Source: a virus. From it: a stretch of DNA of 23,369 nt. Positions 6,724 through 22,301 of the stretch are shown here, one piece after another. Under the pieces are notes generated by a model. It made no database searches. It saw only the letters and a list, made by a program, of their open reading frames with translations, and was not told where the DNA came from. A program made the position numbers and the translations under genes. The stretch spans positions 1-23,369 of the IMG/VR virus record IMGVR_UViG_3300006920_002464. The stretch is one strand, 5' to 3'. Each line of letters starts with the position of its first letter. Within the stretch, counting starts at the first letter, position 1.

Positions 6724-8310
6724 ATGGCAACATATCAAAAAGTTAATACAGGAACTGGGTTCAGATCTGGATCTGGTGGACTTGGTTCAGGTAATTTAGT
6801 CGATGTTGATTATGAAAATCCTTTTGATATAGAAACAAGATTACCTCCACCCCCACCACCAGTAGATGATGGAGGGAGTGATAGTAGCAGTGTAATTCCA
6901 GGAAGACCTGATTCTGCTAGTAATACTGCACTCTCTTATGTCGATGATTATAATAATTCTATTAATACATTTGGATCAGACGGTGGGATGATGCAAGCTA
7001 ATATAGATAATCCTGTAGCTAATCCAACAGATTTTTATGGGAATCCAATACCTAAAGAAGTATATGGACCTACGTTTGATGCTAGAATGTTAATTCCTGG
7101 AGGTTCATTTATGGGCTTTAACGATCCAGCAATACCTACAAGTGGTTACGGAACTCCTGGAACTTATAGTAGTCTTAGTGGTGGAAGATTTAATGCAGAC
7201 AGTCAAGCAGTAGATCCTATTACAGGACAACCAATAGCTGAATACGGAACTAAAGGTGCTTTTTTACAGTCTTTAAAAGATGATCCTTTTTCTAATACAA
7301 CTTCTCCGCAAGGCAATCTTAATGATATGCAATATGCCGCTAGTAGAAGTGAGTTGGCTGGACCAGCATATGGAACTACAGATTCTATGGGTAATCCAAC
7401 TAATACAGGATTAAGTCCTTTAGCTAAACAAAGAGTTGCACAACAACTAGGGCAAAATATGGGATTTGAATCATATACAGTAGCTCCTGGAACTGCTACT
7501 AATGAAGCCATAGCAAACCAATCTGTAGTTGCTGGCTCACAGTATAGTCCTACAGGTACATTTACTACAGAAGCTGATCAAGCAAAATTTAATAACATGG
7601 ATAATTTTAGTTATCCTAATGCAACAAACTTTTCAACTGTTGATTACTCAAAGGCAGATAAACAAAGAGAAGAGGCTAAAACACAGCGAGAAGCAGATGC
7701 TATTGCAGCACAGGAAGCTCAAGCAGCAGCAGAGGCACAACAAAGAGCAGAGGCTCAACAAGCAATAGAAGCACAACAAAGAGCAGAAGAAGAGCGTGCT
7801 CAAAAGGCTAGAGAAGAACAAGCAAGAGCAGAAGCAAAAGCTAAAGCAGCTGCAGATGCGGAAGCAGCACGAGTAGCAGAAGCCGCAAGACGAGCTAGAG
7901 ACTTACAAAGCAATAATGAAGGTCCAAAAGAAAACAAAGGTGGGCGTAGCACTGATATGAATTACAGCGACTTCGGAGGAGGAGGCGGTGGAGGCGGTGG
8001 CGGTAGCAGTTGTGTAATTGCTACTCACGGTATCTCTACTGGTGCATTCACATTAATGGAAAAAGCTAAAGCAGAACTTTGGTGTCAAAAGAAGTATCAC
8101 GATAAATGGTATGGAGAAGCTTTTAGACGAGGATATAGAGCAGTAGGTATGAGGCATGTTAATAACGGAACAGCACCTAGTGTCTATCAAGAGTTTAAAA
8201 ACTTTGTAGCTTACGGAAGAGGAATAAAGAAAGATTGGAAGTCGGCTATTAATTATTATTATAGAACAATAACTTTCTTTGTTATAGGTTTATTTATAGG
8301 AGATAAGTAA
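6724..8310 (+). CDS. Virion-type protein, 528 aa: Pro run, long Ala coiled coil, poly-Gly linker and conserved-looking CVIATH domain
   Basis: Four parts are visible. Residues 1-300 are low-complexity, Gly/Asn/Ser/Tyr-rich, with a six-proline run at 41-46. Residues about 310-393 form a very regular Ala/Gln/Glu/Arg coiled coil (units such as EAQQRAEAQQAIEAQQRAEE). A ten-glycine run spans 418-427. The last ~100 residues look like a compact domain: SSCVIATHGISTG (428-440), AELWCQKKYHDKWYGEAFRR, YRAVGMRH and a hydrophobic end TITFFVIGLFIG. Poly-Gly followed by C-(F/V)-I-A-T recalls the CFI-box C-terminal domain found after glycine linkers in bacterial proteins; that is a resemblance from memory, not a match I could test. 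A Shine-Dalgarno AGGAG at 6713-6717 overlaps the preceding stop. A structural or ejection role is inferred from the operon. Confidence 0.6.
   Translation: MATYQKVNTGTGFRSGSGGLGSGNLVDVDYENPFDIETRLPPPPPPVDDGGSDSSSVIPGRPDSASNTALSYVDDYNNSINTFGSDGGMMQANIDNPVANPTDFYGNPIPKEVYGPTFDARMLIPGGSFMGFNDPAIPTSGYGTPGTYSSLSGGRFNADSQAVDPITGQPIAEYGTKGAFLQSLKDDPFSNTTSPQGNLNDMQYAASRSELAGPAYGTTDSMGNPTNTGLSPLAKQRVAQQLGQNMGFESYTVAPGTATNEAIANQSVVAGSQYSPTGTFTTEADQAKFNNMDNFSYPNATNFSTVDYSKADKQREEAKTQREADAIAAQEAQAAAEAQQRAEAQQAIEAQQRAEEERAQKAREEQARAEAKAKAAADAEAARVAEAARRARDLQSNNEGPKENKGGRSTDMNYSDFGGGGGGGGGGSSCVIATHGISTGAFTLMEKAKAELWCQKKYHDKWYGEAFRRGYRAVGMRHVNNGTAPSVYQEFKNFVAYGRGIKKDWKSAINYYYRTITFFVIGLFIGDK
7975..8004 (+). 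repeat. GGN codon run encoding ten glycines
   Basis: Ten consecutive Gly codons of types gga, ggc and ggt form a hinge between the coiled coil and the C-terminal CVIATH domain of the 528-aa protein. The run is the most GC-rich patch in this part of the window and a possible site of length variation. Confidence 0.8.
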
Positions 8311-10619
8311 TGAATATTATGAAAAAGTATACTGAAAAAGATAGGTACGGAAATATGTTTTCCTATGAATTCGATATACCTTCTATGAATGAAATACCTA
8401 AACCAGATCCAGAAGTATTCAAGCCAATAGGAACAGATACACAACCAGCGATGTTGACTGTTGGAGAAAATATAGTAAATGCAGAAGCATCTAGAATTCC
8501 TGGGGTTCAACCTATGTTAGATCAATTAAATGAAATGGGTAGAGCTATTCAAGATAAACAAGGCGGTCCAATCCCTACCTATGCTTCAGGCGGTACAAAA
8601 GTAGATGATAAGATGTTAGATGCTATTGGTGTAGTCGAATCTAATAATGATCCAAATGCTTTATCAGGTGTAGGTGCTGGTGGTCAATATCAGATTATGC
8701 CTAAAACAGCGTTAAATCCTGGGTATGGCGTTTCTCCTATCTCTCTTGAAGATAGATTTAATCCAGATATAGCTAGAGGTTTTGCAAAAGATTATTTACA
8801 AGGGATTGAAAAGAAATATCCTGATTTTAATAGAGATCAATTATTACAATCATATCATTCAGGTGTTGGTAATGTTCTTAAAAATAATCTTGGACCTGAA
8901 GGCAAGGCATATGTTCCTAAAATAGAAGCAGCAATGGTTAACAATGAAATACCGCCTTTTGTTTCAGATGCAGAAGCAATTAATATGATGCCTCAAGGTC
9001 AAAACTTAAAGGCTAAAGTTAATAATGAAGAAGAAGTAGAAGACAGTTGGTGGTCTAAAATAGTAAAAGGATTAGACGAGCATAGTTTATTTATGGACAG
9101 AGCAGAAGCTAATATGGAAAAAAGAATAGCTCAAAAAGGAACTCTATTTAAAGACGGTCTAGACGATGTTAATGATGATATTGAAAGCTTACAAGCAGAG
9201 ATTGCTAAGAAAGGAAGTAATGTAAGTAGTGCAGATGTAAATAAATTAATTGCTTTAAAAAAGAAAAAACAAAAGCTTGAAAAATTAGTTGAAGAAACTA
9301 CTGCTAAAGCAGATAAACTTAATCAACCATCTAAAGAAGAAATTGAAAACAAAAAGAAAATAGATGATATAAACAAAACATTACCTAACATTGTTAATAA
9401 CACTAAACCTGAATTAAAGAATATAGTAAATCAAATAATAACTGAAACTAATAATACAAAACCAGTTAAAGAAGATGATAAAATTTTAAAAGAAAAAGGA
9501 AAAGAAGTAGCATCTAATGACCCTACCGCATACGATAGAGCTAAAGGTTTTATGTCTCAATTTTTTGATGTCGGTGAATTAACTAGAGCCTCTTTAGTTT
9601 ACCTAGGTTCAAGAGCATTAGGATATGAACATGGCAGTTCTGTTAATTTTGTAGGTAAAAATTATCTTAAACGTATTGACTCTCAAATGGCGGCTAATAG
9701 AAAATGGGCTAACAGTAAAGAAGCAACTAAAGGATATGAGCAATCTTCTATACAAAAGTTTTTAATAACAGGAGATCGTAATGATCTTGTTAAGAAAGGC
9801 TCATCAATAGTAAAACCTTTAAAGCCAATGTTTAACACATTAACACAGAGTGTAGTCCAAACAGTTGAGATGGCTGATGGTTCAGTAGGTGTTAGGATTG
9901 ATGGTAAGTTAGTTCCTTATTCAAAAGTAGCAGGTATACTAGATACTATTGATCCGAAGATACATAACTCTACAACTATTAAAGAAAATTTTAGAAAATC
10001 TTCTGATCAATTTATAAGTTATGTTAATCAAGGTGTTGATGAAGCTGATCAAATAACCAAAGCATCTGTATCAACGATTGCTAATCAAGCCGAATCTTTA
10101 TTAAGAAACACTATGAAGACTGCTAGGTTCAAGAAAGGTACAGTTGCAAGAGCAGAAGTAATCTCTGAATTAGACGCTTCTATTAAAGACTTTTATGAAG
10201 CTAAAAAAGATTATAAATCAGGAAATAGAAAAACAGACCCTAAGTCTTTAAAAGAATTCTTTGATAAACGAATGATTACTTTTAAAACTGGTGGTGCTTG
10301 GAATCCAGCTTTAGTTGGTGATACAGGTGCTGGTAAACTACAAGAAGTACAAAACAATATATTCGGTATGTTGAATTTAAATATGGACAGTAAAATGTCA
10401 GCAACTCAAAAAGCAAAAGTTACAAAGAACTTTATGGATCAATTAAGCTCTGTATGGAAAAATTATTCTACAATGTCTGATGCTGAACTAGCAGAAAAAG
10501 GACTTCGAAAGAATTTTATTGGAACTAACACAGAAGGTTTAAATGATTTTGTAAATTGGACTAATGAAGTTGCTAAAGGAAACACTGATGCTCTTAAAAT
10601 AATAGGAGCATTAACTTAA
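8310..10619 (+). CDS. Internal virion protein with lytic transglycosylase (SLT) domain, 769 aa
   Basis: Residues about 100-211 match the SLT/goose-lysozyme-like transglycosylase fold: IGVVESNND (106-114) with presumed catalytic Glu110, GVGAGGQYQIMPKTAL (120-135), LEDRFNPDIARGFAKDYL (146-163) and LLQSYHSGVGNV (178-189), then GPEGKAYVPKI. It should cleave peptidoglycan glycan strands and open the wall locally during DNA entry, as the transglycosylase domain of T7 gp16 does. Before it is PAMLTVGENIVNAEA (46-60), resembling the MLTPGEFVVN-type motif of other phage virion proteins, and then YASGG. Residues about 220-770 are mostly charged helix with coiled-coil stretches. Its ATG shares a base with the upstream stop, and the Shine-Dalgarno AGGAG is present at 8297-8301. 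The rest of the gp16-like function appears to sit in the next gene, so the domain is carried separately here. Confidence 0.85.
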   Translation: MNIMKKYTEKDRYGNMFSYEFDIPSMNEIPKPDPEVFKPIGTDTQPAMLTVGENIVNAEASRIPGVQPMLDQLNEMGRAIQDKQGGPIPTYASGGTKVDDKMLDAIGVVESNNDPNALSGVGAGGQYQIMPKTALNPGYGVSPISLEDRFNPDIARGFAKDYLQGIEKKYPDFNRDQLLQSYHSGVGNVLKNNLGPEGKAYVPKIEAAMVNNEIPPFVSDAEAINMMPQGQNLKAKVNNEEEVEDSWWSKIVKGLDEHSLFMDRAEANMEKRIAQKGTLFKDGLDDVNDDIESLQAEIAKKGSNVSSADVNKLIALKKKKQKLEKLVEETTAKADKLNQPSKEEIENKKKIDDINKTLPNIVNNTKPELKNIVNQIITETNNTKPVKEDDKILKEKGKEVASNDPTAYDRAKGFMSQFFDVGELTRASLVYLGSRALGYEHGSSVNFVGKNYLKRIDSQMAANRKWANSKEATKGYEQSSIQKFLITGDRNDLVKKGSSIVKPLKPMFNTLTQSVVQTVEMADGSVGVRIDGKLVPYSKVAGILDTIDPKIHNSTTIKENFRKSSDQFISYVNQGVDEADQITKASVSTIANQAESLLRNTMKTARFKKGTVARAEVISELDASIKDFYEAKKDYKSGNRKTDPKSLKEFFDKRMITFKTGGAWNPALVGDTGAGKLQEVQNNIFGMLNLNMDSKMSATQKAKVTKNFMDQLSSVWKNYSTMSDAELAEKGLRKNFIGTNTEGLNDFVNWTNEVAKGNTDALKIIGALT

Positions 10620-10631
10620 AAGGAGTAGCAT

Positions 10632-13600
10632 ATGAATATCTTAGATGAAAACGGAGGCTCTTTAACTTTAATTGATTCAGATACTGCAATTAATAGTGAT
10701 GGAGAACGATTTCGAATAAGAGGTTTTGATGGTCTAGAAACAGATAAGCTTATACAAGACAAAGATGGCAACTGGAAAATAGAACAAGGGGAAGTAGGAG
10801 CTGAGTTTCAAACTAAAAAAGTAGCTGAGCTTCTTTCTACAGGAAATTTCTATGGTAAGTATTCAAATGAAATTGATGAAAGCGAAGGAAGCAGACGCAT
10901 AATTGATTTTATAAATAATAAAGGAGAGAATGCAGCTACTGAATTATACAAACAAGGTATGGTTAAAACAGATGCTTTTACTACAGAAGAAAATATATTA
11001 GCTCAAAGAGATATGGAGTTAGCTAATGCTTTATTAGGTAATTCAAATACACCTTACGATAAAATCGGTGAAGAATATCGAAACACAATGGCTACCTTAC
11101 CTCTTGAATTTAAAGGTATGGCTCTTAATGAGAGAGAATATAATGAGAATATACATAGTGGAGTAGCCTTCCGTGACCCTTCAAAGACCATTGATAATCA
11201 ACCTTTAGGGTTTTGGAATTCAGTAGGCAGAAGTTTTGGTGTAGGATATGATGGAGTATTTGAAGGTCTTTACGGATATGCAGATGCATTAGGTCAAATG
11301 ACTGATATCGAAATGATTGAAAACTTTGGTGAAAGAAATGTTATAAGAATCCGTGATGAGATGAGTCAAGCTCCTGAATTACTTCTTAACTATACAGATG
11401 TAGAAAGTATTTCTGATGGCTTTCAATATGCTATGAATACTGCAGGTATGGCAGCACCATACATGATAGCTGGCTTTGCTTCATTAGCGGCAGCAATTCC
11501 TTTAAGTGCTATGACAACGCCTGCGATTGGTTTATTGTTATCTCAAGTGCCTCAAACTATGATATATGCTGGTCATACATGGAATGAGATGGAAGGTGAA
11601 AAAGGCTTATCTCAATTTGTTACTGCAAATATGTCAGGCGTATTACAAGCAACTTTAGAAAGAGTAGGTTTAAGAGGGTTAATGCAACCAGTAGATTTAC
11701 TTTCTGTAGCTGGGCGTAATAGAGCTTTAAAACATATTGTTAATAATAATAAAGGTATGACACTTCAACAAGCACAGATTGTATTAAATGCACAATTAAA
11801 AGGAGCAATTAAAGATCAAGTTAAATTTTTAGGTAAAGATTTTGCTAAGCTATCTGCACTTACGTTTGGAAAAGCAGCGGCAAAAGGAATGACTAGAGAA
11901 GGCTTAACCGAAATAGGGCAAGAGTTAACTCAAGCAGCAGCAGTTACATTAGGGTCAGATACTACTTTTACTGATGAAGAGCTTAAAGAAAGGCTAATAA
12001 ATGCTGGTATTGGAGGAGCAATTCTCGGTGGAGCGTATGGAGGAGCTGGTAACATTTATCGCCAAGGTAAAAACCAATTAACAAAGAAAATGTACTTAAG
12101 GGCAGATGATACTCGCTCTACTCCTATCGAACAACAAAGACTTGAAGATGAAAAATCAGGTAAGTTAAATGAGACTAATAGAAGAATAGATCAAGACATT
12201 GCTCGACAAGAAGGTAACGTTAAAGATCGTAGAGATCCTACTAATCCTGATGGTTTACCTACAGTAACTGTATATGATACTAATGGTCAACCTCATAGAA
12301 AAATATTAATAGAGGGAACTCCAACTAAACCTATTAAAGTTAAAGATTTAATACTTCCAAATAAGATAGCTCAAGAACATACTTTAAATAATGGAAGCTT
12401 TTTTAGTATGTCTGCTCTTAACCAAAGATTTGTATTATCAGATGGTGCTATTGTTAATGAGTTAAATCCTAAAGAATTACAAGCTCGAAAGACCGCTTTA
12501 TTTAAAGAATATAAAGATAGAAAAGATCAGGGAAGAGTTTCTCCTTTAGATCTAGGACTGATTTCTGCTGAATTAAATGCAATACAATATCAACTAGAAC
12601 GAATTCCTAATCCTAATCTTCATAAAGAAATACCTGTACTTCCAGACATTAAGTTTGATAAGACTGATATTAAGAATAAACAGATAGTAGGAGACTTAGC
12701 TAGAGATCATGAAGCAACTGATAAAGGTACTTTTAATTTTATAAAAAATAGTGAAGGCTTAAAAGATTTTGTTGTAAACGGAACTACTAATGTAGCTAAA
12801 CTATTTAGAGCAGTAGAAAACTATATGTTATCTCATAAAAAATTAGTCACTTCACCTGTTGCTTTAAAGATATGGTCTAGAATAGCTGGCTTAACTAGTG
12901 CTGCTTATTTATCTGGTAGAAACTTTGTAGAATATGCTAGAGATATTGTAAGTGATCTTAAATCTTATGTCGATGAAAATGATATTGCTATGGATTTAAC
13001 TGGAGATACGCTAACGGCTAACTCTGCAGTAGATATATCTAAAGAGTTAATAGAGTTTGGTAGATCAGGTAACTTTAAAGCAATTAAAGCTATTCTGTTT
13101 GCTACAACACTTCATGATCTTGATGTATTAGCTTCAAGAGAACGTAGAACTATTACAGGTCCAAATCTTCTTAAGCTATATCAAGGCTTACTTAATACAG
13201 TTCCTAAAAATCAATCACAAAAAGATGATTTAGAAAGAAGAATAAGAGTAATTGAAGAACATTTAGCTGATAAGTATGCTATTCAAGCTAATGAAATTCG
13301 AGATGTAATGGACTACATCGATAATAATGCTACTGTAGTAAATGAATTAGACAGTAATAATAAGCCTACTGGAAAGTCTTCAAAGGTAATTACTGATAAA
13401 TTTAAGCTATTAAAGAAAATAGTTAAAGAAGAAAATACAGGAGAGTTTAAAACTTTAAATGAACCAATTACTAGTGAAGTAGAATTTGAAAGAATGACTA
13501 AATTATTTATTGCTGCTTCTAAAATAAAAGCATCATATGATAAAAGCTTTCAAATATATGCTGAACAAGTTAGAAAAGAAAGAAATCAAAACATAGATGA

Positions 13601-15677
13601 TGAGTATGATCCAGATTATTGGTGGACAAATCAAGGGTTTAATTGGAAAGCAGTTAAAAAGAATCCTACTAAATTTAAAAAATGGCTTATGGGAACTAAG
13701 AATATTAGTAAAGCAGAAGCTGAACGGATGTATGAAACTATTTCTAGAGAAGGAACAAGCTCAATAAGTGAAGAGTTCTCTATGGTTGATGGGAAGCCTT
13801 ATCAAAACTTTTCTTTTAATCCTAAGTTTAAAATGTTATATAAAAAAGATGGGTTTAAAGAATTTTCTAGTCAAAATTTATTTGAAGCATTAAATAAAAA
13901 TCAAGTAGAAATATCTAAGTTTGTATCAAGTGCTCAATACTTTGGTGATGGTGGATGGAAATTAAATCAATTATTTGATGATTTAAAGAAAGAAACTGAA
14001 GCAGGTTTAAATGAGTTAGATAAAAAAGATATTAGACAATTTGCTTATTATACTAAAGCAGTAATCGATAGTGCTCATGGTAACTTTAACAGGATAGCTA
14101 GTAAAGAATGGGCAGCAGTTAATCGTTATTTAACTAGCTGGACTATCTTTTCAGGGCTGCCGTTAGCTGCGATAGCTTCTTTTCCAGAAACAGCTATGAT
14201 TTATTTTAATTTAAAAGATGATCAAGAGTTTAAAAGAGCTACTGATATAATGGTTAAAGACCTAGCATCTATATTTAATAGGGCATTAAAGAAAGACGTA
14301 GCAAATACTGAAAAGCTTTTAAAACAAATTGGATTAACTACTGATCAAAACACTGTTGTAGATAGGTATGCTACAGGAGAAAGAGATGTTGCTTTCTTAA
14401 GAGCACATGAAGCTTTCTTTAAAGGTGTCGGTATTCAGAAGATAACTCAGTTTCAGAGAAGAATAAATGCTGCTATTGGTTTAGATTTTATTAAATCTAA
14501 TTTTAGTATATTACAGTTATCACCTAGAAAATACAATAAAAATACAGGTGATCGTAATGCTTTTGACTTTGATAAATTTACAGAGAGAGAAAGGCTAGCT
14601 TATAATCAATTAAAAGAATTAGGAATAGATGTAGAGTCTGTTGATCAAATGGTTTCTGGTATTGATGAGCTTCTTAGAGATAGCTTATTTGATTTATCAG
14701 ATAATACTTTAGAGAATAGGCAATCGCCTCTTGATGTATTGTTTGATACAACTAATAAAGTCAATCCGAGAGTCGGTAAAGAATTTGAAGCAATGCCAAC
14801 TTATGATAAGCAAGGCAAAGCAATTAACCAACTTAAAGGTATTTCACCTAGAGAACAGTTATTAAGAACTATTGCTCGTGGTGAATTTAAGGCTAAAAAA
14901 GAAAGCTATGAAACAGGTGAGACCTATATTGATAAGAATACAGGGAAGGAAGTTAAACGTTATGGTCGATTAAAAATCAATGAGCAAAAACTTATTGATA
15001 GAGTTCAAGAATTGTCTGCATCTTTAGATGATGAAATAGAAACTGGGCTATATCGTTTTGTAAACGAAAGAGTACAACTTCCAGGAGCTAGTAATAGACC
15101 TTTATTTTTTCAAGATCCTCATTATCAGTTGTTAACTCAATTTAATGGTTTCTTAAGTACTTTTACTGCTAATATAGTTCCTAAACTTTGGAATAGAAAT
15201 CTTAGAAAAGGAAATACCAAAGTAAAATATGATACCTTTGCTCTTATGATACTCATGATGGGTCTTGGAGGTGCATCTCAATACTTAAAAGATCTTATTA
15301 AGTTCCTAGAACCTAGTCCTTATCTAGATGGTCCTCGCTACGTACAACGAGCTGTCTATGCATCAGGTATTCTTGGTCAATATGAGAGAATTTTAGATAC
15401 AGTAGTTCCTCTTTATCCAGATAGAGATACAGGTTTAGATGCTTTATCAAGAGCTATTTTAGGAGAAGCTGGTCCAGCATCTAGAAATATTCAAAATATA
15501 TTTACTGGTATTGGTCAGTTAGCTGAAGGCGAAACTGAAAGAGCACTTAATAGTATAGGTAAAACATTACCTGTAATTGGTCCTGTACCAGTTGGAAGAA
15601 AAGGTTTTTCTGATATAATGCATTTAGAAAATCCCTTAAATGAAGACTTAAACGAATACTTATTCGGTAAACGATAA
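10632..15677 (+). CDS. Giant ejection-type protein, 1681 aa, with N-terminal staphylococcal-nuclease-like domain
   Basis: Residues about 8-115 resemble a staphylococcal nuclease fold: LTLIDSDTAI (11-20), ERFRIRGFDGLET (25-37) and EGSRRIIDFI (85-94). Against S. aureus nuclease, Asp17, Arg28, Asp33, Glu36 and Arg88 fall at the places of Asp21, Arg35, Asp40, Glu43 and Arg87, with identical Arg-to-Asp-to-Glu spacing, so the active site looks intact. The remainder is largely helical. Hydrophobic stretches lie at 271-312, about 455-476 (Gly/Ala-rich, GIGGAILGGAYGGAG) and 1536-1560 (FALMILMMGLGGASQYL). The C-terminal 200 residues, including HYQLLTQFNGFLSTF and ASGILGQYERILD, have the character of T7 gp16-type internal proteins that form the ejected DNA channel. 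The Shine-Dalgarno AGGAG at 10621-10625 fixes the start. An ejection role is inferred from size, position and helix content. Confidence 0.7.
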   Translation: MNILDENGGSLTLIDSDTAINSDGERFRIRGFDGLETDKLIQDKDGNWKIEQGEVGAEFQTKKVAELLSTGNFYGKYSNEIDESEGSRRIIDFINNKGENAATELYKQGMVKTDAFTTEENILAQRDMELANALLGNSNTPYDKIGEEYRNTMATLPLEFKGMALNEREYNENIHSGVAFRDPSKTIDNQPLGFWNSVGRSFGVGYDGVFEGLYGYADALGQMTDIEMIENFGERNVIRIRDEMSQAPELLLNYTDVESISDGFQYAMNTAGMAAPYMIAGFASLAAAIPLSAMTTPAIGLLLSQVPQTMIYAGHTWNEMEGEKGLSQFVTANMSGVLQATLERVGLRGLMQPVDLLSVAGRNRALKHIVNNNKGMTLQQAQIVLNAQLKGAIKDQVKFLGKDFAKLSALTFGKAAAKGMTREGLTEIGQELTQAAAVTLGSDTTFTDEELKERLINAGIGGAILGGAYGGAGNIYRQGKNQLTKKMYLRADDTRSTPIEQQRLEDEKSGKLNETNRRIDQDIARQEGNVKDRRDPTNPDGLPTVTVYDTNGQPHRKILIEGTPTKPIKVKDLILPNKIAQEHTLNNGSFFSMSALNQRFVLSDGAIVNELNPKELQARKTALFKEYKDRKDQGRVSPLDLGLISAELNAIQYQLERIPNPNLHKEIPVLPDIKFDKTDIKNKQIVGDLARDHEATDKGTFNFIKNSEGLKDFVVNGTTNVAKLFRAVENYMLSHKKLVTSPVALKIWSRIAGLTSAAYLSGRNFVEYARDIVSDLKSYVDENDIAMDLTGDTLTANSAVDISKELIEFGRSGNFKAIKAILFATTLHDLDVLASRERRTITGPNLLKLYQGLLNTVPKNQSQKDDLERRIRVIEEHLADKYAIQANEIRDVMDYIDNNATVVNELDSNNKPTGKSSKVITDKFKLLKKIVKEENTGEFKTLNEPITSEVEFERMTKLFIAASKIKASYDKSFQIYAEQVRKERNQNIDDEYDPDYWWTNQGFNWKAVKKNPTKFKKWLMGTKNISKAEAERMYETISREGTSSISEEFSMVDGKPYQNFSFNPKFKMLYKKDGFKEFSSQNLFEALNKNQVEISKFVSSAQYFGDGGWKLNQLFDDLKKETEAGLNELDKKDIRQFAYYTKAVIDSAHGNFNRIASKEWAAVNRYLTSWTIFSGLPLAAIASFPETAMIYFNLKDDQEFKRATDIMVKDLASIFNRALKKDVANTEKLLKQIGLTTDQNTVVDRYATGERDVAFLRAHEAFFKGVGIQKITQFQRRINAAIGLDFIKSNFSILQLSPRKYNKNTGDRNAFDFDKFTERERLAYNQLKELGIDVESVDQMVSGIDELLRDSLFDLSDNTLENRQSPLDVLFDTTNKVNPRVGKEFEAMPTYDKQGKAINQLKGISPREQLLRTIARGEFKAKKESYETGETYIDKNTGKEVKRYGRLKINEQKLIDRVQELSASLDDEIETGLYRFVNERVQLPGASNRPLFFQDPHYQLLTQFNGFLSTFTANIVPKLWNRNLRKGNTKVKYDTFALMILMMGLGGASQYLKDLIKFLEPSPYLDGPRYVQRAVYASGILGQYERILDTVVPLYPDRDTGLDALSRAILGEAGPASRNIQNIFTGIGQLAEGETERALNSIGKTLPVIGPVPVGRKGFSDIMHLENPLNEDLNEYLFGKR

Positions 15678-15686
15678 CATAACTAC

Positions 15687-15710
15687 GAGTAGCCTATCAT
15701 ATGGCTACTC
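15687..15710 (+). promoter_or_regulatory. Perfect 8-bp hairpin in the longest gap of the late operon
   Basis: GAGTAGCC at 15687-15694 pairs perfectly with GGCTACTC at 15703-15710 around an 8-base loop. It lies in the 50-base gap between the 1681-aa and 1219-aa genes and ends about 7 bases before the Shine-Dalgarno region (ggag at 15718-15721). No T-tract follows, so it is not a standard terminator. It may be an RNA processing site, a translational control element or a structured promoter. Confidence 0.5.
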
Positions 15711-15727
15711 ATCTAGTGGAGAATTAA

Positions 15728-18700
15728 ATGGCAATAAATATAGGCGGTATAAACGTTGAATCAGTCTCAGATAAATTAAAAAGGAGACAAAAATTATTAC
15801 AAGATCGTAAAGATGTTTCAATAGAAACAGAAGCAACTCCTATAACAGATAACGAATTTAATACAGGAGTAGATCGAGGAGATATAGGAATAACTGAAGG
15901 TCGTACTATCGATGAGGTACAAGAAGTTGAAGCAGCACCTAAAAAAATTGTTCCTGGATTAAAAGATTTAGATAAACAATTTGAACAACAAACAGAAGCA
16001 GGTTCTGGAGGACAACCTTTTGATGTAATTGCTAATCAAATAAAAAAGGCTGGAGGCATTTTAAAAACAGATGAGGAAGGTAATCAGTTATTTGATAAAT
16101 CTAAACAAGCAGCGTTTAAATCAATCGGTGAAGGCATTGAACAAGACGAAGCACAATATGATCAATCATCTCCTGATTTGTTTGATACAGTTAGTCCAGA
16201 TGTGTTATTAGATAGGCTAAGAAATACTAAGTCAGTAGAGCCTACAGTATCTACAACTGATGAGGCTAGTTCTTTTATCGATAATGGTGTTATGGTTCAA
16301 GATGAATTTGATAGAACAGCTTTACCTTTCTTTAATAGTGGAACAAAAGAAAGCGAACAAATATTAAATATACTTTCAAATGGTAATTTAATTGATACAA
16401 ATAATTTAAGAATAAGTCCTAATCTCGCTAACAATGCACTCACTGCTATACTAGAAGTAATGAGAGATTTAATTAATAAAGAAGATGAACTTGTTACTAA
16501 GCCTGAACTATTGCTTGCTAAGAATGAATTAAACGCTCAAAAGTATAGAGCTATGAAAGATAAAGTTAAAAAAGTTTCTTTACAAAATAAGATGATTGAT
16601 GCTTCTGATTTAAGGAAAGGCTTATTTACTAAAGTAATGAATCGTGTAATGGAAAACCCTAAAGCATTAGGTATAGCTAAAGCTCCTGGAGCTCAAACTG
16701 GTTTTGGAGGATTTGGAGAAACACTTAATCCTAATACAGTATCAGCTGGTGATGCAGTTTTATTTCAAGTATTAAGTAATCTTGGTTGGATTCAAAAAAT
16801 ACCTAAAGAAAACAATCCTGAATTAGGTATTGAAGATGATATGATCGTTATATCTGAAAAGGGTGAAATGGTTTTACAAAATACTAGAGGTATTTTAGAT
16901 GACCTTTTAGTTAGAGATATTACTTTTCGATCTAAAGTTCCAGGAGTAGACTTACCTACTAGAGCTAGATTTGCTGGTGAAAGAAAAAGAGGTACAGTAT
17001 CTCAAACAAATAAAATGTCTTACAATACATACATTGAAGATACTGTTAAACAACTATTAAAGAGTATGCCATTAACAGTCGTTGATGAAAGATATAATAT
17101 GGCTAATCAGTTAATTGATTCTGTCATTATAACAGATGATGACGTAACTGTTTTAGGCTTTAAAGAAGAAGGAGTTCCTGGAAGGCGTTGGTCAAAGGGA
17201 GATGCGGCTAAAACACTAGGACTAGATGAAGCTCATTGGCAAAAAGCATTTAATCATGCCAAAAAATTATTTCCAGAAGAAAGAGCAGAACAACAAGCTA
17301 ATCTAGTTATGATTAGAGAAGCTAAGAAATTATTAAAATTAAAGAAATATGCTGCTGAAGAAACAAATGGAGGTGTATACTATAATAAACAATTCCATGC
17401 ATCTTCTGTAGGCAGATACTTTATTCGTAACACTGATATTAACTCTCAGCTAAATAAAGTTGCAAGAATGTTTGTCGGTAACGCAGTTGCAATTACTCTT
17501 GATCCAAGAAAAGATACTCAAACTCAAACATATAAAAACTGGGCGTATATAATAGGTAAAAATATATTACCACCTAGTAGTCGTATGTATGAAAGTAAAA
17601 TGACAGGATTAGGTGCTCAAAGAACTGAAGACTTAACCTATAATACAATATTAAATACTTCGTTATCGATATTAAGTAATCCTAATGATCCTGTTTATAC
17701 TATGTGGGTTGAGAAAGGAAGAAAAATAAAAGAAGCATATTTAAAATCTAAACAAGAACCTCAAACTTTAGCTGACTTTAAGAACCTAGTAGGTCAAGAT
17801 TTATTTAATGAATTATTTGATCCTGAAGGTAATGGAATGGCTGGAGAATGGGGATATCCTTATCAATCTTATATGGATGTTTATGACTTTAATGTTGCTA
17901 GAGAAAAAGGAACTGCATTTAAAGCTAAATCTCAAACTCAACATGATGGAAAACAAAACGGTATTGCTATTCAAGCTATGCAATTTGGAAGAAGAGATAT
18001 CTTACAATTAGTAGGTGCTATGTATAGTACTGGAGAAGTCGCTACGCCATTTGGAGATATAAGAGATAGATTTTTAGAGAAGATGGATCTTGGAATTAAA
18101 GTTGCATTTACAACTGATGAAGATCGATTAGCATATTGGTTAGCTTTTAAAGATGAGTTAATGAAAGACAAAGGTGCATTAAAAACTTTTGGTAAAGAGC
18201 TTTCTAAAACACCCTTAATGGAAACATCTTACGCAAAATACGAAGGCTTTAATGAAGAAACTGCTATTAATTTTATCGATAAAAATCCTCAACTCTTTGA
18301 AGGAATAGTGATGGCTAAATCTAATGGATATAGCCGAGATGATATGATTAGTGATCTTAATGATATTATAACTGAAACACTTAGAGAAACTTTAAATCTA
18401 AGAAATCAAAAGATATTAAAAGAAGCTGGTTATATGTGGGCTAAGCTAGGTGTAACTCCTAAAATGAAAGGTCCACTAGGTACTGATATTTATATGGGTT
18501 CATATGACTACAAGCCTATGATTGATCCTTTAACTGGTCAAGCAAAGACAGTAGAGGTAGCAACACCAGATGGTACAGTCTATATACCTATAACTAAAAG
18601 ATATTCTACTGGCAGTGCTAAATCTAAAAAGAAAAAATTAATACGAGTAAAAAACCAAGACGGCTATGCTGAATGGAAAAGAGAAGATGATACTGATAGA

Positions 18701-19387
18701 AGATTTGGTCAAGAAGTGGCTAATCAATTACCAGTATTAACTGTACAACAAATAGATGGTGCTATTATGGCAAAGACTATTTACAGAGCTAATATAGATA
18801 ATTTAAATAGAAGCTCACCAGCATTTGTTATACCAATTCATGATGCTATAATTACAGATGCATCTTCGGTTAAGCTATATCATTCGATGATTAATCAACA
18901 GTTTAGAGAAGTTAATATGAGTTATTCTATAGGTAAAGAAGTACTTAAAGGAGTTGATAATGCTTATAATAATGTAACTAAAAAGTTAATGGATGACCCT
19001 AAAGGTCAACAACTAATGAACAACGACTCTAAATATAGAGCAGTTCATGATGAATTAGTTAGAATAAAAACTGAAATAGATAAAATAAAAGGTCAAACAG
19101 CAGAAGAAAGATTTGGAGATGGAAGACCTCGTGGTCGTAAATATAAAAAACCAGTTAATTTAACTCCAAAGAACAAAGAAACTATTCTTGCTATTGCAGA
19201 AGCAGAAGGCTGGAAGCCTGATGGCACAGGAGCTATTACTAACGAAGGATTAGCTGCAATCTTAGAAATCTTTTATAAAGATACTAATCTTAGAGCTGGT
19301 CTTGAAAACTTAGCGTTAGAAGCTAAAGCTGCTAGAAAGAAAATCTATAATCAGTTATTAAAAACTGTTATGTATCAATATAATTAG
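15728..19387 (+). CDS. Putative divergent (virion-type) single-subunit RNA polymerase, 1219 aa
   Basis: The C-terminal half carries the T7-superfamily polymerase motifs in order. SSVGR (559-563) stands where T7 has D421xxGR425 and N4 virion polymerase has TxxGR, and is followed by NTDINSQLNKVAR. QHDGKQNGIAIQAM has Asp740 at the T7 Asp537 position (motif A). KTPLMETSYA has Lys827 and Tyr835, with the same eight-residue spacing as T7 Lys631 and Tyr639 (motif B). LPVLTVQQIDGAIMAKT resembles the PNFVHSxD segment, and FVIPIHDAIITDAS has Asp1039 at the Asp812 position (motif C). Residues 1-200 are acidic and probably flexible; 200-550 are mostly helical. The expected activity is DNA-directed RNA synthesis. 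Its place after the ejection proteins suggests packaging in the particle, as for N4 gp50, though that protein is near 3500 aa. The Shine-Dalgarno is ggag at 15718. Identification rests on motif order and spacing only. Confidence 0.7.
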   Translation: MAINIGGINVESVSDKLKRRQKLLQDRKDVSIETEATPITDNEFNTGVDRGDIGITEGRTIDEVQEVEAAPKKIVPGLKDLDKQFEQQTEAGSGGQPFDVIANQIKKAGGILKTDEEGNQLFDKSKQAAFKSIGEGIEQDEAQYDQSSPDLFDTVSPDVLLDRLRNTKSVEPTVSTTDEASSFIDNGVMVQDEFDRTALPFFNSGTKESEQILNILSNGNLIDTNNLRISPNLANNALTAILEVMRDLINKEDELVTKPELLLAKNELNAQKYRAMKDKVKKVSLQNKMIDASDLRKGLFTKVMNRVMENPKALGIAKAPGAQTGFGGFGETLNPNTVSAGDAVLFQVLSNLGWIQKIPKENNPELGIEDDMIVISEKGEMVLQNTRGILDDLLVRDITFRSKVPGVDLPTRARFAGERKRGTVSQTNKMSYNTYIEDTVKQLLKSMPLTVVDERYNMANQLIDSVIITDDDVTVLGFKEEGVPGRRWSKGDAAKTLGLDEAHWQKAFNHAKKLFPEERAEQQANLVMIREAKKLLKLKKYAAEETNGGVYYNKQFHASSVGRYFIRNTDINSQLNKVARMFVGNAVAITLDPRKDTQTQTYKNWAYIIGKNILPPSSRMYESKMTGLGAQRTEDLTYNTILNTSLSILSNPNDPVYTMWVEKGRKIKEAYLKSKQEPQTLADFKNLVGQDLFNELFDPEGNGMAGEWGYPYQSYMDVYDFNVAREKGTAFKAKSQTQHDGKQNGIAIQAMQFGRRDILQLVGAMYSTGEVATPFGDIRDRFLEKMDLGIKVAFTTDEDRLAYWLAFKDELMKDKGALKTFGKELSKTPLMETSYAKYEGFNEETAINFIDKNPQLFEGIVMAKSNGYSRDDMISDLNDIITETLRETLNLRNQKILKEAGYMWAKLGVTPKMKGPLGTDIYMGSYDYKPMIDPLTGQAKTVEVATPDGTVYIPITKRYSTGSAKSKKKKLIRVKNQDGYAEWKREDDTDRRFGQEVANQLPVLTVQQIDGAIMAKTIYRANIDNLNRSSPAFVIPIHDAIITDASSVKLYHSMINQQFREVNMSYSIGKEVLKGVDNAYNNVTKKLMDDPKGQQLMNNDSKYRAVHDELVRIKTEIDKIKGQTAEERFGDGRPRGRKYKKPVNLTPKNKETILAIAEAEGWKPDGTGAITNEGLAAILEIFYKDTNLRAGLENLALEAKAARKKIYNQLLKTVMYQYN

Positions 19388-19396
19388 GAGGAAATT

Positions 19397-19642
19397 ATGA
19401 ATTATAACTCATTGGCTTTACAAGGCTTTGAAATTGACGATATGGAATTTGTTAAAGAGTTTGAGCTAGATCCTAAATTAGCATATACAAAGGGTCTTAA
19501 CTTTGCTATGCTAGATAATGTCTATGCTAAAAATGTATCTGGCTTTATAGATAGAGGTATGCCTAGAGACAAAGCAAGGGCAGAAGCAGGGAGATTAAGA
19601 GCTAAAGCTAAAAGACAAATCATGGAGTTGTTACCTAAATAA
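19397..19642 (+). CDS. Hypothetical protein, 81 aa, last gene of the late operon
   Basis: A small soluble, mostly helical protein with an acidic N-terminal half (GFEIDDMEFVKEFELDP) and a basic C-terminal helix (RDKARAEAGRLRAKAKRQ). It has one of the strongest ribosome sites in the window, AGGAGG at 19386-19391, overlapping the stop of the polymerase-like gene and six bases before the ATG; it is therefore probably well translated and coupled to that gene. It ends four bases before the terminator stem. I do not recognise the family. The bipolar charge would suit a protein or nucleic-acid adaptor, but no function can be read from the sequence. Confidence 0.75.
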   Translation: MNYNSLALQGFEIDDMEFVKEFELDPKLAYTKGLNFAMLDNVYAKNVSGFIDRGMPRDKARAEAGRLRAKAKRQIMELLPK

Positions 19643-19645
19643 ACG

Positions 19646-19694
19646 TACCCCACAGGGAATCCTTATGGAAACCTTGTGGGGTATCTTTATTTTT
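19646..19694. terminator. Bidirectional intrinsic terminator between convergent operons
   Basis: TACCCCACA (19646-19654) pairs with TGTGGGGTA (19675-19683); a further GG/CC pairing can extend the stem past a bulge. On the + strand it is followed by the T-rich tail at 19684-19694. On the - strand the hairpin is followed by another T-rich stretch (cgtttattt), so it should stop transcription from both arms. Its + strand tail overlaps the stop codon of the 705-aa RNA polymerase gene. Confidence 0.9.
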
Positions 19695-21810
19695 AACAGA
19701 AGAAATAGTCCGATTGAACTACTTCATTAATATTTAGAGAACCTATATCAGGTCTCTCGCCTTCATAACCTCTTCCAAATGGAATCGAGTCATAGAAGTT
19801 TTCTTTGTCGTATACTTTAACAAACTTATCTCGTGCATCTACCATAAGATCTTCAATCCTATTAGCATGAGCACTAAATGAGTCATGCACTGCACCAAAC
19901 TCACCATCCCAATCAGCTACTACAAGAGCCATATGAGCCGCATCAGAGCTATGAACAAAGTTAGGACTGATGCCACACATAAATCCTCGTCTATCTGGTA
20001 TATCAGTCTTCTCTCTTATTACATGCTTAAATCTCAGCTCACCATCAGGTGTATTGAATCCATAGCAGTCTACCTTTGCAGGTCTAGTACGATAACATTC
20101 GTATATTACTGGAAAACCTGACTCGGATTCCCATTGTATACCACGACCTCTATCAGTGCCGTAAGTATCTAGCCAATTAGAAATTTCTTTATCAGCTAAC
20201 CGTTGCAGGTATCTCATAGTGTCTAATGGACCTGGGCAGACTTCTTGTATAGCTCTTATCACCTGACTACTAAGCTCATCACAATCCCAAGTATTGATAT
20301 TGTAATCTTTAGTGTAACCAAATTGATAGCAGTCGCTATACATAGACTCTGACATTTTCTTTTGTCCACAGCTATAAGCCCTCGTCATAGCCCCTCGTTT
20401 AGCTATGCCCTTCCTAATATGCTTCATAGGCATTTGTCTTTCTTCAAACCATTCAGGCATTCTTTCACATAATCTCTTTGCTACTTGAACATAGAAATCA
20501 TTAGGCACTTCTTCAGGTGTTAACCCTACTAGTCTACCTGTAAGAGAGTCTTTAGACATAGCACCTAAGTGTTGCCAACCATTGTTAGCACCGTCAATAG
20601 GTATAGGTAGCTGAGTATAGAACTCATCTTTACTTTGAGAGTACTTATACCACTCAATACAACAAGCCATGAATGCTATCTTCTTCTCTGCTTCTTCTGC
20701 AAAGATTCTCATCTCACCCATTTCAATTATCGTATCTATATTTTCCTGAGTCCATCTAGCTCTATCGTCTAGCGTCATCTTATCTACAGATATAGTATCT
20801 AGCTCTTCTTCTTGTAGTATCTTCTTATAGTCTGAAGATGCCCAATTAGGTATTTGATCTATACTATATGACTGATTGTAAGAACAAGCAGTATGAACTG
20901 CTAACCAAAAGTTAGCGTTCTCATCAAAGAGTTTTCCTTTAGCAAAGAGTAATTGACTCCGTGCTATATCTGCTCCCTGAAAGTTAAAGAACGGTTCACT
21001 ATAATATAGTCTACCTCTATAATCTGCATCTAAGTAGAAGCTAAACTCTTTGTCTAACCACTTATCAGCTGCTGCCATAACCTCTTTGACTTCTCTATTC
21101 TTTGAAGCTTGACGTTGATATAGCTTAGCGTTCTCGTTCTTGTCTTCACCATTGTACTCTTCATTACTAATAAACATATCCCAGTTCTCTAAGATAGCTT
21201 TATGCACATCAGAGTTAACCATAAATCTAGTTGCTTGTAACTTGTCTATAGCCTTTACAAATGGCTTATCAAGGTACTTGAGAAATTTCTTTTCTTTATT
21301 CTTCTCCCAAGTCTTTATAACTGATTTACCATTGTCCTGAAATAACCCAGTTATAGGCGGTATTACTGTAGCACTTATACAAGTAGTCTTGCCAGTGATT
21401 ACTTCCATTTCACCCCACTTTTCAGTAGCATGTATGGTCACTGGCTTACGACTCTTCATATGTCCTACAGAGATAGTTAAATAGCCACACATAACAAAAC
21501 CTTCTATAACAAGATCACCTACTCTTACATGATCTCTAAAGTTAACGTTATTGCTATCCCAACTTTCTATTATATATTTCCCTATTGCCATAGAGGCTTG
21601 AGTTATTGCTGACTCACCTTCTACCTTATTGCGTTTAAAGCAACGTTGAATTACCTTTCTAGCATAGGATATCATATCATCAACAAGATGATCTAACATA
21701 TCAACACCATCCGTATCAATCATACGCATGAGCTGTAAATTTCTTCTAGGCTTTACACCTAGATCGTCACCCCTAATCTTTGTTAGGAGATAGTCCTTTA
21801 TATCTTGCAT
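19693..21810 (-). CDS. T7-like single-subunit DNA-directed RNA polymerase, 705 aa
   Basis: All signature motifs are present: DADYRGRLYY (261-270; T7 D421xxGR), FNFQGADIARSQLLFAKGK (275-293), IPIDGANNGWQHLGAM with catalytic Asp406 (motif A), KRGAMTRAYSCG with Lys471 and Tyr479 (motif B; T7 Lys631 and Tyr639), SPNFVHSSDAAHM (615-627) and VHDSFSAH with catalytic Asp643 (motif C). It ends SDYFFC, comparable to the FAFA foot of T7. About 260 residues precede DxxGR, against about 420 in T7, so the N-terminal promoter-binding domain is markedly short. The role is transcription of phage genes from phage promoters. It is the last gene of the - strand arm, preceded by its own sigma-70-type promoter and a purine-rich Shine-Dalgarno (agagag), so it is probably first made by host RNA polymerase. 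Confidence 0.97.
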   Translation of the reverse strand: MQDIKDYLLTKIRGDDLGVKPRRNLQLMRMIDTDGVDMLDHLVDDMISYARKVIQRCFKRNKVEGESAITQASMAIGKYIIESWDSNNVNFRDHVRVGDLVIEGFVMCGYLTISVGHMKSRKPVTIHATEKWGEMEVITGKTTCISATVIPPITGLFQDNGKSVIKTWEKNKEKKFLKYLDKPFVKAIDKLQATRFMVNSDVHKAILENWDMFISNEEYNGEDKNENAKLYQRQASKNREVKEVMAAADKWLDKEFSFYLDADYRGRLYYSEPFFNFQGADIARSQLLFAKGKLFDENANFWLAVHTACSYNQSYSIDQIPNWASSDYKKILQEEELDTISVDKMTLDDRARWTQENIDTIIEMGEMRIFAEEAEKKIAFMACCIEWYKYSQSKDEFYTQLPIPIDGANNGWQHLGAMSKDSLTGRLVGLTPEEVPNDFYVQVAKRLCERMPEWFEERQMPMKHIRKGIAKRGAMTRAYSCGQKKMSESMYSDCYQFGYTKDYNINTWDCDELSSQVIRAIQEVCPGPLDTMRYLQRLADKEISNWLDTYGTDRGRGIQWESESGFPVIYECYRTRPAKVDCYGFNTPDGELRFKHVIREKTDIPDRRGFMCGISPNFVHSSDAAHMALVVADWDGEFGAVHDSFSAHANRIEDLMVDARDKFVKVYDKENFYDSIPFGRGYEGERPDIGSLNINEVVQSDYFFC

Positions 21811-21839: not shown

Positions 21840-21868
21840 ATTATAACATGTTTACTTCTTTTTTGCAA
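21840..21868 (-). promoter_or_regulatory. Sigma-70-type promoter for the phage RNA polymerase gene
   Basis: On the - strand, TTGCAA (21868-21863) lies exactly 17 bases before a perfect TATAAT (21845-21840), and the latter is preceded by TG plus one base, an extended -10. The -35 matches TTGACA at four of six positions. It spans the end of the dCMP deaminase gene and the 41-base gap before the polymerase ATG at 21810, giving a leader of about 20-25 bases. Confidence 0.75.
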
Positions 21869-22301
21869 GTACTTTTACCATTCTTTTATTATTTAATATT
21901 GTATACCCCACCATATCTTTCTCATATGCTTGTCCGACCACGACATTACTGATACCAGACTGTAAGATAAGCTTAGTACACTCCGTACAAGGAGATAGCG
22001 TAGTGTAAAGGGTAGCACCCTTTCCATCTGTGCTAGAGCAAGCCAGCTTACATATAGCATTAGCTTCAGCGTGTATAACAATAGGTAGTGTACGACCAGT
22101 TGTGGTATCCTTACAATGATTAGGAAAACCTGTAGGAGTACCATTCCAACCCATCGAAATGATGTTTCCATCTTTAACAATAACTGCTCCAACCTTAGTG
22201 TCTTCGTCATAAGACATCTCAGATACTCGGTAAGCAATATCCATATATAAATGATCGTATTTCTCAGCTTTGATTTTATCTTTAACATTATTTATTGTCA
22301 T
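21852..22301 (-). CDS. Deoxycytidylate (dCMP) deaminase, 149 aa
   Basis: A zinc-dependent cytidine-deaminase-fold enzyme that converts dCMP to dUMP, the precursor for dTMP. The zinc-binding and catalytic signature is complete: HAEANAI with His77 and Glu79, and SPCTECTKLI with Cys105 and Cys108. KVGAVIVKDG (36-45) and GWNGTPTGFPNHC (51-63) are typical of the dCMP rather than the free-cytidine branch, and the length is normal. With the reductase at the left edge it forms the visible deoxynucleotide supply; no thymidylate synthase is seen in the window. The first 14 bases overlap the end of the 41-aa gene, and an AAAGG lies upstream at an acceptable distance. Confidence 0.93.
   Translation of the reverse strand: MTINNVKDKIKAEKYDHLYMDIAYRVSEMSYDEDTKVGAVIVKDGNIISMGWNGTPTGFPNHCKDTTTGRTLPIVIHAEANAICKLACSSTDGKGATLYTTLSPCTECTKLILQSGISNVVVGQAYEKDMVGYTILNNKRMVKVLAKKK

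Follow-up and report, generated by a model that had tools for sequence, protein, structure and literature searches.

The window analyzed here is a virus contig of 23,369 bases (IMG/VR record IMGVR_UViG_3300006920_002464), and the subject of this work is one of its open reading frames (ORFs), which encodes a protein of 1219 amino acids. This protein is, we believe with good confidence, a competent member of the lineage of the virion RNA polymerase (vRNAP) of phage N4. It would be packaged in the particle, ejected into the host and used for early transcription, after which a T7-like RNA polymerase (RNAP) encoded by the same genome would take over. The gene is as follows:

15728-19387, plus strand: putative compact N4-type virion RNA polymerase ORF, 1219 amino acids, ATG start, intact; residues ~180-1073 fall on the N4 polymerase domain

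The catalytic motifs T/DxxGR, A, B and C that define the single-subunit, T7-type RNAPs are all present in the window protein and lie in superfamily order. They align with N4 (mini-vRNAP numbering) as listed here:

17402-17416, plus strand: SSVGR, residues 559-563, the T/DxxGR motif; R563 on N4 R424
17939-17974, plus strand: motif A, QHDGKQNGIAIQ, residues 738-749; D740 on N4 D559
18194-18235, plus strand: motif B, K823-x3-K827-TPLMETS-Y835-A836; on N4 R666-x3-K670-NPLTITI-Y678-G679
18722-18769, plus strand: NQLPVLTVQQIDGAIM, residues 999-1014, counterpart of T7 PNFVHSxD and N4 TIGTGDGMM; D1010 on N4 D929
18833-18853, plus strand: motif C, PIHDAII, residues 1036-1042; D1039 on N4 D951

Motif A reads D740-G-K-Q-N744-G745, and the segment N-Q-L-P-V-L-T-V-Q-Q-I-D1010 is found within the NQLPVLTVQQIDGAIM region. 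Further pairings with N4 are S559 on T420, K823 on R666, K827 on K670 and Y835 on Y678, and SSVGR is followed by N-x-Q-x-x-K-x-x-R, which is common to both proteins. The spacing of K827 and Y835 is identical to that of K631 and Y639, which we take to be their equivalents in T7 RNAP. In N4 vRNAP, residues R424, D559, K670, Y678 and D951 are reportedly catalytic, an assignment said to come from Kazmierczak et al. in 2002. A preliminary description of this DNA had named SSVGR, D740, K827/Y835, a PNFVHSxD-like segment and the His-Asp pair at D1039, and all of these are found at the residues it gave. It was equally correct that the collinear motifs and the Kx7Y spacing follow T7 RNAP, and that the leading Asp of DxxGR is replaced by Ser, akin to the Thr of N4.

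Relatives were collected with one degenerate motif A pattern run over IMG/VR, which returned 16 contigs, each encoding a homologue; a profile-based scan gave 18 loci. The family has approximately 15 complete or nearly complete, distinct members that are 26-37% identical to the window protein, with one at 83% (L002, the same contig as L012 among the 16), and the complete members are 1156-1327 amino acids long. One relative is a near-complete genome of 57,850 bases (L058-L060), referred to here as the 57.85-kb relative. An exact terminal repeat of 126 bp (L058:1-126 and the end of L060) indicates that this genome, of about 57.7 kb, is probably complete. That the family resides on bacterial or archaeal chromosomes was considered and rejected, as 241 pattern matches in genome contigs included no relatives.

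Residues R563, D740, G741, G745, Y835, Q1007, D1010, H1038 and D1039 are invariant in 15 of 15 members. Position 559 is more variable (Ser in nine of the 15, Thr in five and Asp in one) and position 827 is Lys in 12 and Arg in three. These patterns bear on whether the protein could be a vRNAP descendant that has lost polymerase activity and now serves as an ejection or structural protein. Such a loss would fit an identity to N4 of only ~13%, the K827R change in three members, and the replacement of the glycine at 836 by Ala in the window protein. However, R563, D740, Y835, D1010 and D1039 are retained throughout a family this divergent, which is the pattern of a constrained active site, and so we consider an inactive descendant very improbable. 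As judged from these residues, the compact polymerase should be catalytically active.

Direct sequence searches were empty. The window protein alone produced no match to PDB sequences and no tblastn match in INPHARED, while the whole-family profile produced a single, irrelevant match to PDB sequences, so that a link to N4 required profile-profile comparison. Three profiles were built: the polymerase family, T7-like RNAPs, and 11 N4-type vRNAPs, these being N4 and ten other phages in which the vRNAP is annotated or recognizable. The N4 reference is the vRNAP gp50 of Escherichia phage N4 and of the Schitoviridae (PHROG 2206; PDB 3c3l and 9pnq). Using hhalign, the family aligns to the N4 vRNAPs over 764 columns with a probability of 99.2, an E of 1.4e-19 and a score of 188. 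None of the controls scored above 27; these were five column-shuffled N4 alignments, the N4 alignment reversed, and two families of unrelated ejection proteins. The aligned part begins near residue 180 in the window protein and near ~1085 in N4, and ends past motif C.

Further support came from scanning 577 ORFs with the N4 vRNAP profile. Here, the family is found with E values from 1e-13 to 1e-3 (1.9e-9 for the window protein), and the T7-like RNAPs rank lower, at 0.03 and worse. The family therefore stands nearer to N4 vRNAP than to the T7-like RNAP encoded in the same genome. The window protein alone matches PHROG 2206, "virion RNA polymerase", over motif C with an E of 8.7e-9. This PHROG is matched by 11 of 17 family members, and PHROG 414, the T7-type RNAP, by 8 of 17. 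PF00940 is weak in the second polymerase of four of ten relatives (E ~1e-6 to 3e-5) and strong for the T7-like RNAP in every record.

Structure prediction leads to the same class of enzyme. An AlphaFold2 model of residues 160-1219, made with 17 family sequences, has a mean pLDDT of 71.7 and a pTM of 0.68, and predicts, at moderate confidence, the cupped-hand polymerase fold. The PDB matches that Foldseek lists for this model are single-subunit RNAPs (yeast mitochondrial RNAP, 1.4e-13; T7, 3.7e-12; N4 vRNAP, 1.6e-10), and among viral models they are T7-like and vRNAP proteins. Alternatively, the protein could be a nucleotidyltransferase of another kind, such as a family-A DNA polymerase, as one member weakly matches the DNA polymerase PHROG 17 (1e-4) and three match PHROG 7766. 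This reading was rejected, since the DGxxNG form of motif A is of the RNA polymerase type, the PDB structures matched are RNAPs and the N4 vRNAP profile alignment spans all of the motifs. In addition, the 57.85-kb relative encodes a separate family-A DNA polymerase. We give the DNA polymerase reading almost no credence.

The reading that the enzyme is packaged and injected is supported indirectly by its late-operon position behind a lysozyme-like ejection protein, a cysteine-free ejection module and an N4-like layout. The neighboring features are:

8310-10619, plus strand: cysteine-free 769-amino-acid protein, SLT transglycosylase domain; probably ejected to open the cell wall
10632-15677, plus strand: cysteine-free virion protein of 1681 amino acids, PHROG 6958; probably ejected
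19397-19642, plus strand: 81-amino-acid ORF closing the late operon
19643-19692, no strand assigned: terminator-like inverted repeat between two convergent transcripts, recognized in the sequence
19693-21810, minus strand: ordinary T7-like RNA polymerase, 705 amino acids, 15 cysteines, convergent neighbor of the virion polymerase; PF00940, E 1.2e-52
21852-22301, minus strand: dCMP deaminase, on the middle/replication side

The polymerase gene is the final large gene of a rightward late operon, the order of which is the 1412-amino-acid protein (a virion protein assigned to PHROG 3287), small genes, the 303-, 528-, 769- and 1681-amino-acid proteins, the polymerase and the 81-amino-acid ORF. It lies directly behind the transglycosylase and 1681-amino-acid genes, and N4 gp50 likewise lies behind gp51/gp52. 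The convergent, leftward genes include a primase-helicase in addition to the T7-like RNAP and the deaminase. The preliminary description also stands in further points: the gene directly follows the ejection proteins, an ordinary T7-like polymerase is present as well, the protein is compact at about a third of N4 size, and a relation to N4 vRNAP in preference to the T7-like enzyme is supported, the N4 profile scoring the family far above the T7-like RNAPs.

Only one cysteine is found in 18,095 amino acids across the 15 family members, and none is in the window protein. The four-gene ejection module of the 57.85-kb relative has none in 3,776 amino acids, where ~15 would be expected at the rate of other late proteins. 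Elsewhere, cysteine makes up 0.41% of other late proteins, 1.45% of early/middle proteins and ~2% of the T7-like RNAP. The ejection genes also diverge fast together (~23-48% identity to distant relatives), and the T7-like RNAP is 73-95% identical among relatives in which the virion polymerase is mostly at 27-37%. From this analysis, we infer that the polymerase is carried in the virion and ejected. A gene in the late operon could also encode an active N4-lineage polymerase that functions inside the cell in late or packaging-linked transcription and is not virion-borne; such a further late role is possible, though a putative T7-type promoter already serves the start of the late operon. This is considered unlikely, because cysteine depletion is common to the ejection proteins and N4 vRNAP but absent in the intracellular T7-like RNAP, because the gene is positioned among ejection genes, and because the only characterized close relatives, the N4-type vRNAPs, are virion proteins.

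Three further observations concern the late proteins. Besides the family, the sole ORF among the 577 with an E near 1e-3 to the N4 profile is the 528-amino-acid late protein (window 6724-8310), whose weak match (E ~1e-3) is to the N-terminal part of the profile. The 1681-amino-acid protein was considered as a split-off N4 vRNAP domain and rejected, as no homology was seen (score 34, E 0.035). A Pfam match to PoNi_N (E 0.017, under the cut-off) was dismissed as chance.

The phages that carry the compact polymerase are short-tailed and unrelated to N4. In the 57.85-kb relative, the other six N4 hallmarks, namely DNA polymerase, major capsid protein (MCP), portal, tail and the large and small terminase subunits (TerL and TerS), have no convincing phmmer homologue, the best being portal at an E of 0.006. 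Instead, this genome is syntenic with that of Roseobacter phage CRP-7 and encodes homologues of its proteins (TerL 62%, portal 55%, MCP 55%, primase 46% and DNA polymerase 35% identity), the T7-like RNAP included. With N4 hallmarks unrecognizable and CRP-7 homologues in their place, the group is of CRP-7 type (marine Roseobacter) and not Schitoviridae. The window has polymerase, ejection and replication genes in common with the 57.85-kb relative, and at least 144 contigs carry the terminase of that relative. Its rightward early genes, DNA polymerase, exonuclease, primase-helicase and T7-like RNAP (14360-16498) are followed by a leftward late operon that ends in the virion polymerase.

CRP-7 itself encodes a distant homologue of the family, as judged from sequence comparison:

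L003:17862-21566, minus strand: CRP-7 gp33, QBQ72826.1, "hypothetical protein", 1235 amino acids; family profile E 1.3e-5

Like the window protein, gp33 is of similar length, lacks cysteine and is convergent beside a T7-like RNAP, gp30; the motif A Asp, the motif B Tyr-Gly and the motif C HDA are aligned. It differs in that identity is ~18-24%, DxxGR is reduced to xxxLR and motif A reads DARQSN. A small ORF is present at the site matching the 81-amino-acid ORF in CRP-7 and in two relatives read in detail. In the parts of the CRP-7 paper that were consulted, the T7-like polymerase alone is discussed, and gp33 is not annotated as a polymerase there or in the record (PMC6918029). With this homologue, a cultured system, with host FZCC0042, exists for the compact polymerase.

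Taken together, these phages probably use a two-step transcription program. The compact polymerase, reduced to approximately the polymerase domain (1219 versus 3500 amino acids), would be made late and packaged with the 769-amino-acid transglycosylase and the 1681-amino-acid ejection proteins. It would then thread its way into the host, before the DNA or together with it, and transcribe the initial few kilobases, with left-end hairpins as its probable promoters. The early products would lead to the T7-like RNAP (19693-21810), which would use TAAACACMCCCTTATAGGAAAAT as its promoter to transcribe the replication (middle) and late genes. Assigning the vRNAP to the early element and the T7-like enzyme to the middle/late box is the simplest reading, and we infer it from their arrangement.

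Candidates for both kinds of signal are found in the relatives. The early element of the 57.85-kb relative combines two hairpins: a large one, formed by an imperfect inverted repeat, and a compact one with a stem of 6 bp and a loop of 4 nt. The 3' arm of the large repeat shares bases with the compact hairpin, so that only one of the two can form at a time. Three copies (at ~185, 672 and 2955) lie within the first 3 kb, each a short way upstream of an early gene's ribosome-binding site, and neither strand of the other 41 kb has any. The elements are located at:

L058:127-194, 630-690 and 2910-2975: early elements of the 57.85-kb relative
L063:13115-13190, 13540-13592 and 14020-14080: early elements of a second relative (three copies)
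L071-L149: early elements of further relatives
L067 and L074-L141: TAAACACMCCCTTATAGGAAAAT box upstream of terminase

The compact stems show compensated changes (AGGACA/TGTCCT, AGGATA/TATCCT, GAGACA/TGTCTC, AGGGCA/TGCCCT, TGTACA/TGTGCA and GAGGGA/TCCCTC). In 51 early regions beside related terminases there are 31 forward matches to the element, two reverse and none in shuffles; the descriptor, which demands pairing, was derived from the first two genomes, and the counts are not independent because many of the contigs are closely related. Near the left end of CRP-7 are two hairpins that differ in their stems and share the loop CTGTAATGG. No Rfam match was found in the first 20 kb of the 57.85-kb relative.

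The TAAACACMCCCTTATAGGAAAAT box, which resembles a T7-type promoter, precedes terminase in 49 of the 51 contigs; the background rate is 3%. In the 57.85-kb relative, further copies lie at 3.9 kb and ahead of the DNA polymerase (L058:3876, 7997). A second conserved stretch, like CACATCTTTTTTA-x-ACATAAACAAAGA, is present upstream of the box in most contigs. Within the polymerase gene, AAAACACCCTTAATGGAAA (window 18206-18224) matches the T7-type box with three mismatches where none would be expected by chance, and may be an internal promoter or an accident.

The early hairpin elements are thus candidate vRNAP promoters, or RNA switches. In a CRP-7-type hybrid program, three left-end promoters of a new two-state type (large cruciform/compact hairpin) would be read by the compact vRNAP and the single box by the T7-like RNAP, with perhaps little or no need for host RNAP at any stage. 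We advance this arrangement tentatively, with a chance just short of even. For the promoter step only, the two-hairpin elements may instead be RNA devices for processing, stability or attenuation, with the vRNAP using other signals. The two hairpins of each element exclude one another in the manner of an attenuator, the elements are directly before ribosome-binding sites, and a conserved hairpin is also present in the leader of the polymerase gene. Against this, sigma-70-like host promoters are not in excess over shuffles in the early region. An RNA-device role is plausible, although we would not favor it.

Several observations, in addition to the arginines at position 827, weigh against an ejected polymerase that reads early hairpins. 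In the hairpins proposed as promoters the loop is of 4 nt, versus 3 nt in N4 promoters, and these hairpins could equally be RNA elements. N4-type hairpins with a 3-nt loop are absent from the early intergenic regions; two were seen, both within ORFs, which is below chance expectation. The window does not include the early region, and the elements are known from relatives. Finally, confidence in the structural model is moderate and the TM-scores are modest (0.35-0.5).

Two other hairpins were noted. The first closely precedes the ribosome-binding site of the polymerase gene, within the 50 nt that separate this gene from the one before it:

15687-15710, plus strand: leader hairpin GAGTAGCC-tatcatat-GGCTACTC

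Eleven relatives have a hairpin in this position too, and the changes in its stem are compensatory. The 12 sequences have nine distinct stems in which, with arms drawn by eye, all listed pairs are standard and two-sided changes occur at most positions. In several relatives, the loop region contains CUCC, which might base-pair with GGAG in the ribosome-binding site. The second is a long hairpin, GGCTGTCCTCGTGG...tcctccct...CCTCGTGGGTTGCC, which lies ~100-1200 bases upstream of terminase in the late/early gap of L074-L112. It adjoins a T-run terminator in some contigs and is possibly a noncoding RNA.

An ejected single-subunit RNAP is already known, from N4. What is new is a compact vRNAP outside the Schitoviridae, lacking the metallopeptidase part and paired with a one-chain T7-like RNAP. 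No account of a compact, non-Schitoviridae vRNAP was found in the open-access literature, which is not proof that there is none. An IMG/VR survey discarded vRNAP-like proteins of less than 2,500 amino acids, a cut-off that would hide the compact class (PMC10654107). The ejected polymerase of N4 has so far been treated as a giant protein and the hallmark of a single family, and two puzzles are the role of its two extra thirds and the passage of 3,500 residues through a narrow tail. A natural version that is only the polymerase domain, with separate ejection proteins and in an abundant marine group, reveals which parts are dispensable and provides a much smaller enzyme for study. The cultured homologue in CRP-7 makes packaging, rifampicin-resistant early transcription and promoter use directly testable. 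If the proposal is true, a compact polymerase that reads hairpin promoters of its own would add a new orthogonal tool for transcription.

Among known systems, N4-type RNAPs are said to occur solely in N4-like phages and to be fused nearly always to a metallopeptidase (PMC5512222), and reference N4 vRNAPs span 2,842-3,820 amino acids (PMC10654107), a range below which the compact family falls. Pseudoalteromonas phage Y3 (Poorviridae, PMC11654794) and Stenotrophomonas phage StenR_269 (PMC10747016) are similar, both being short-tailed phages outside the Schitoviridae with a putative vRNAP. In the portions of these accounts that were consulted, the Y3 assignment is based on PSI-BLAST and that of StenR_269 on size, absence of cysteine and helix content with no polymerase motif named, and neither describes a compact form.

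In N4, as here, the T/SxxGR, DGxxNG, (K/R)x3Kx7Y(G), PxxxxxxxD and D motifs are collinear, and cysteine is absent from the vRNAP (none in 3,500 amino acids in N4 and none in 1219 here). The N4 vRNAP gene also closes a late operon behind ejection genes, convergent with early/middle genes, and the genome has a second RNAP of T7 type. The systems differ in that N4 vRNAP is roughly three times as long, its N-terminal and C-terminal thirds being absent from the window protein, and in that motif C is FD in N4 and HD, as in T7, here. N4 vRNAP has HELVH at 2228, whereas neither the window protein nor the other large late proteins examined contain HExxH, and the genome encoding the compact polymerase is not that of a Schitovirus. 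With the T7-like RNAPs (PF00940), the compact polymerase shares the fold and the order of catalytic motifs; the T7-like enzyme of the window itself differs from it in being intracellular, cysteine-rich and, at 705 amino acids, shorter.

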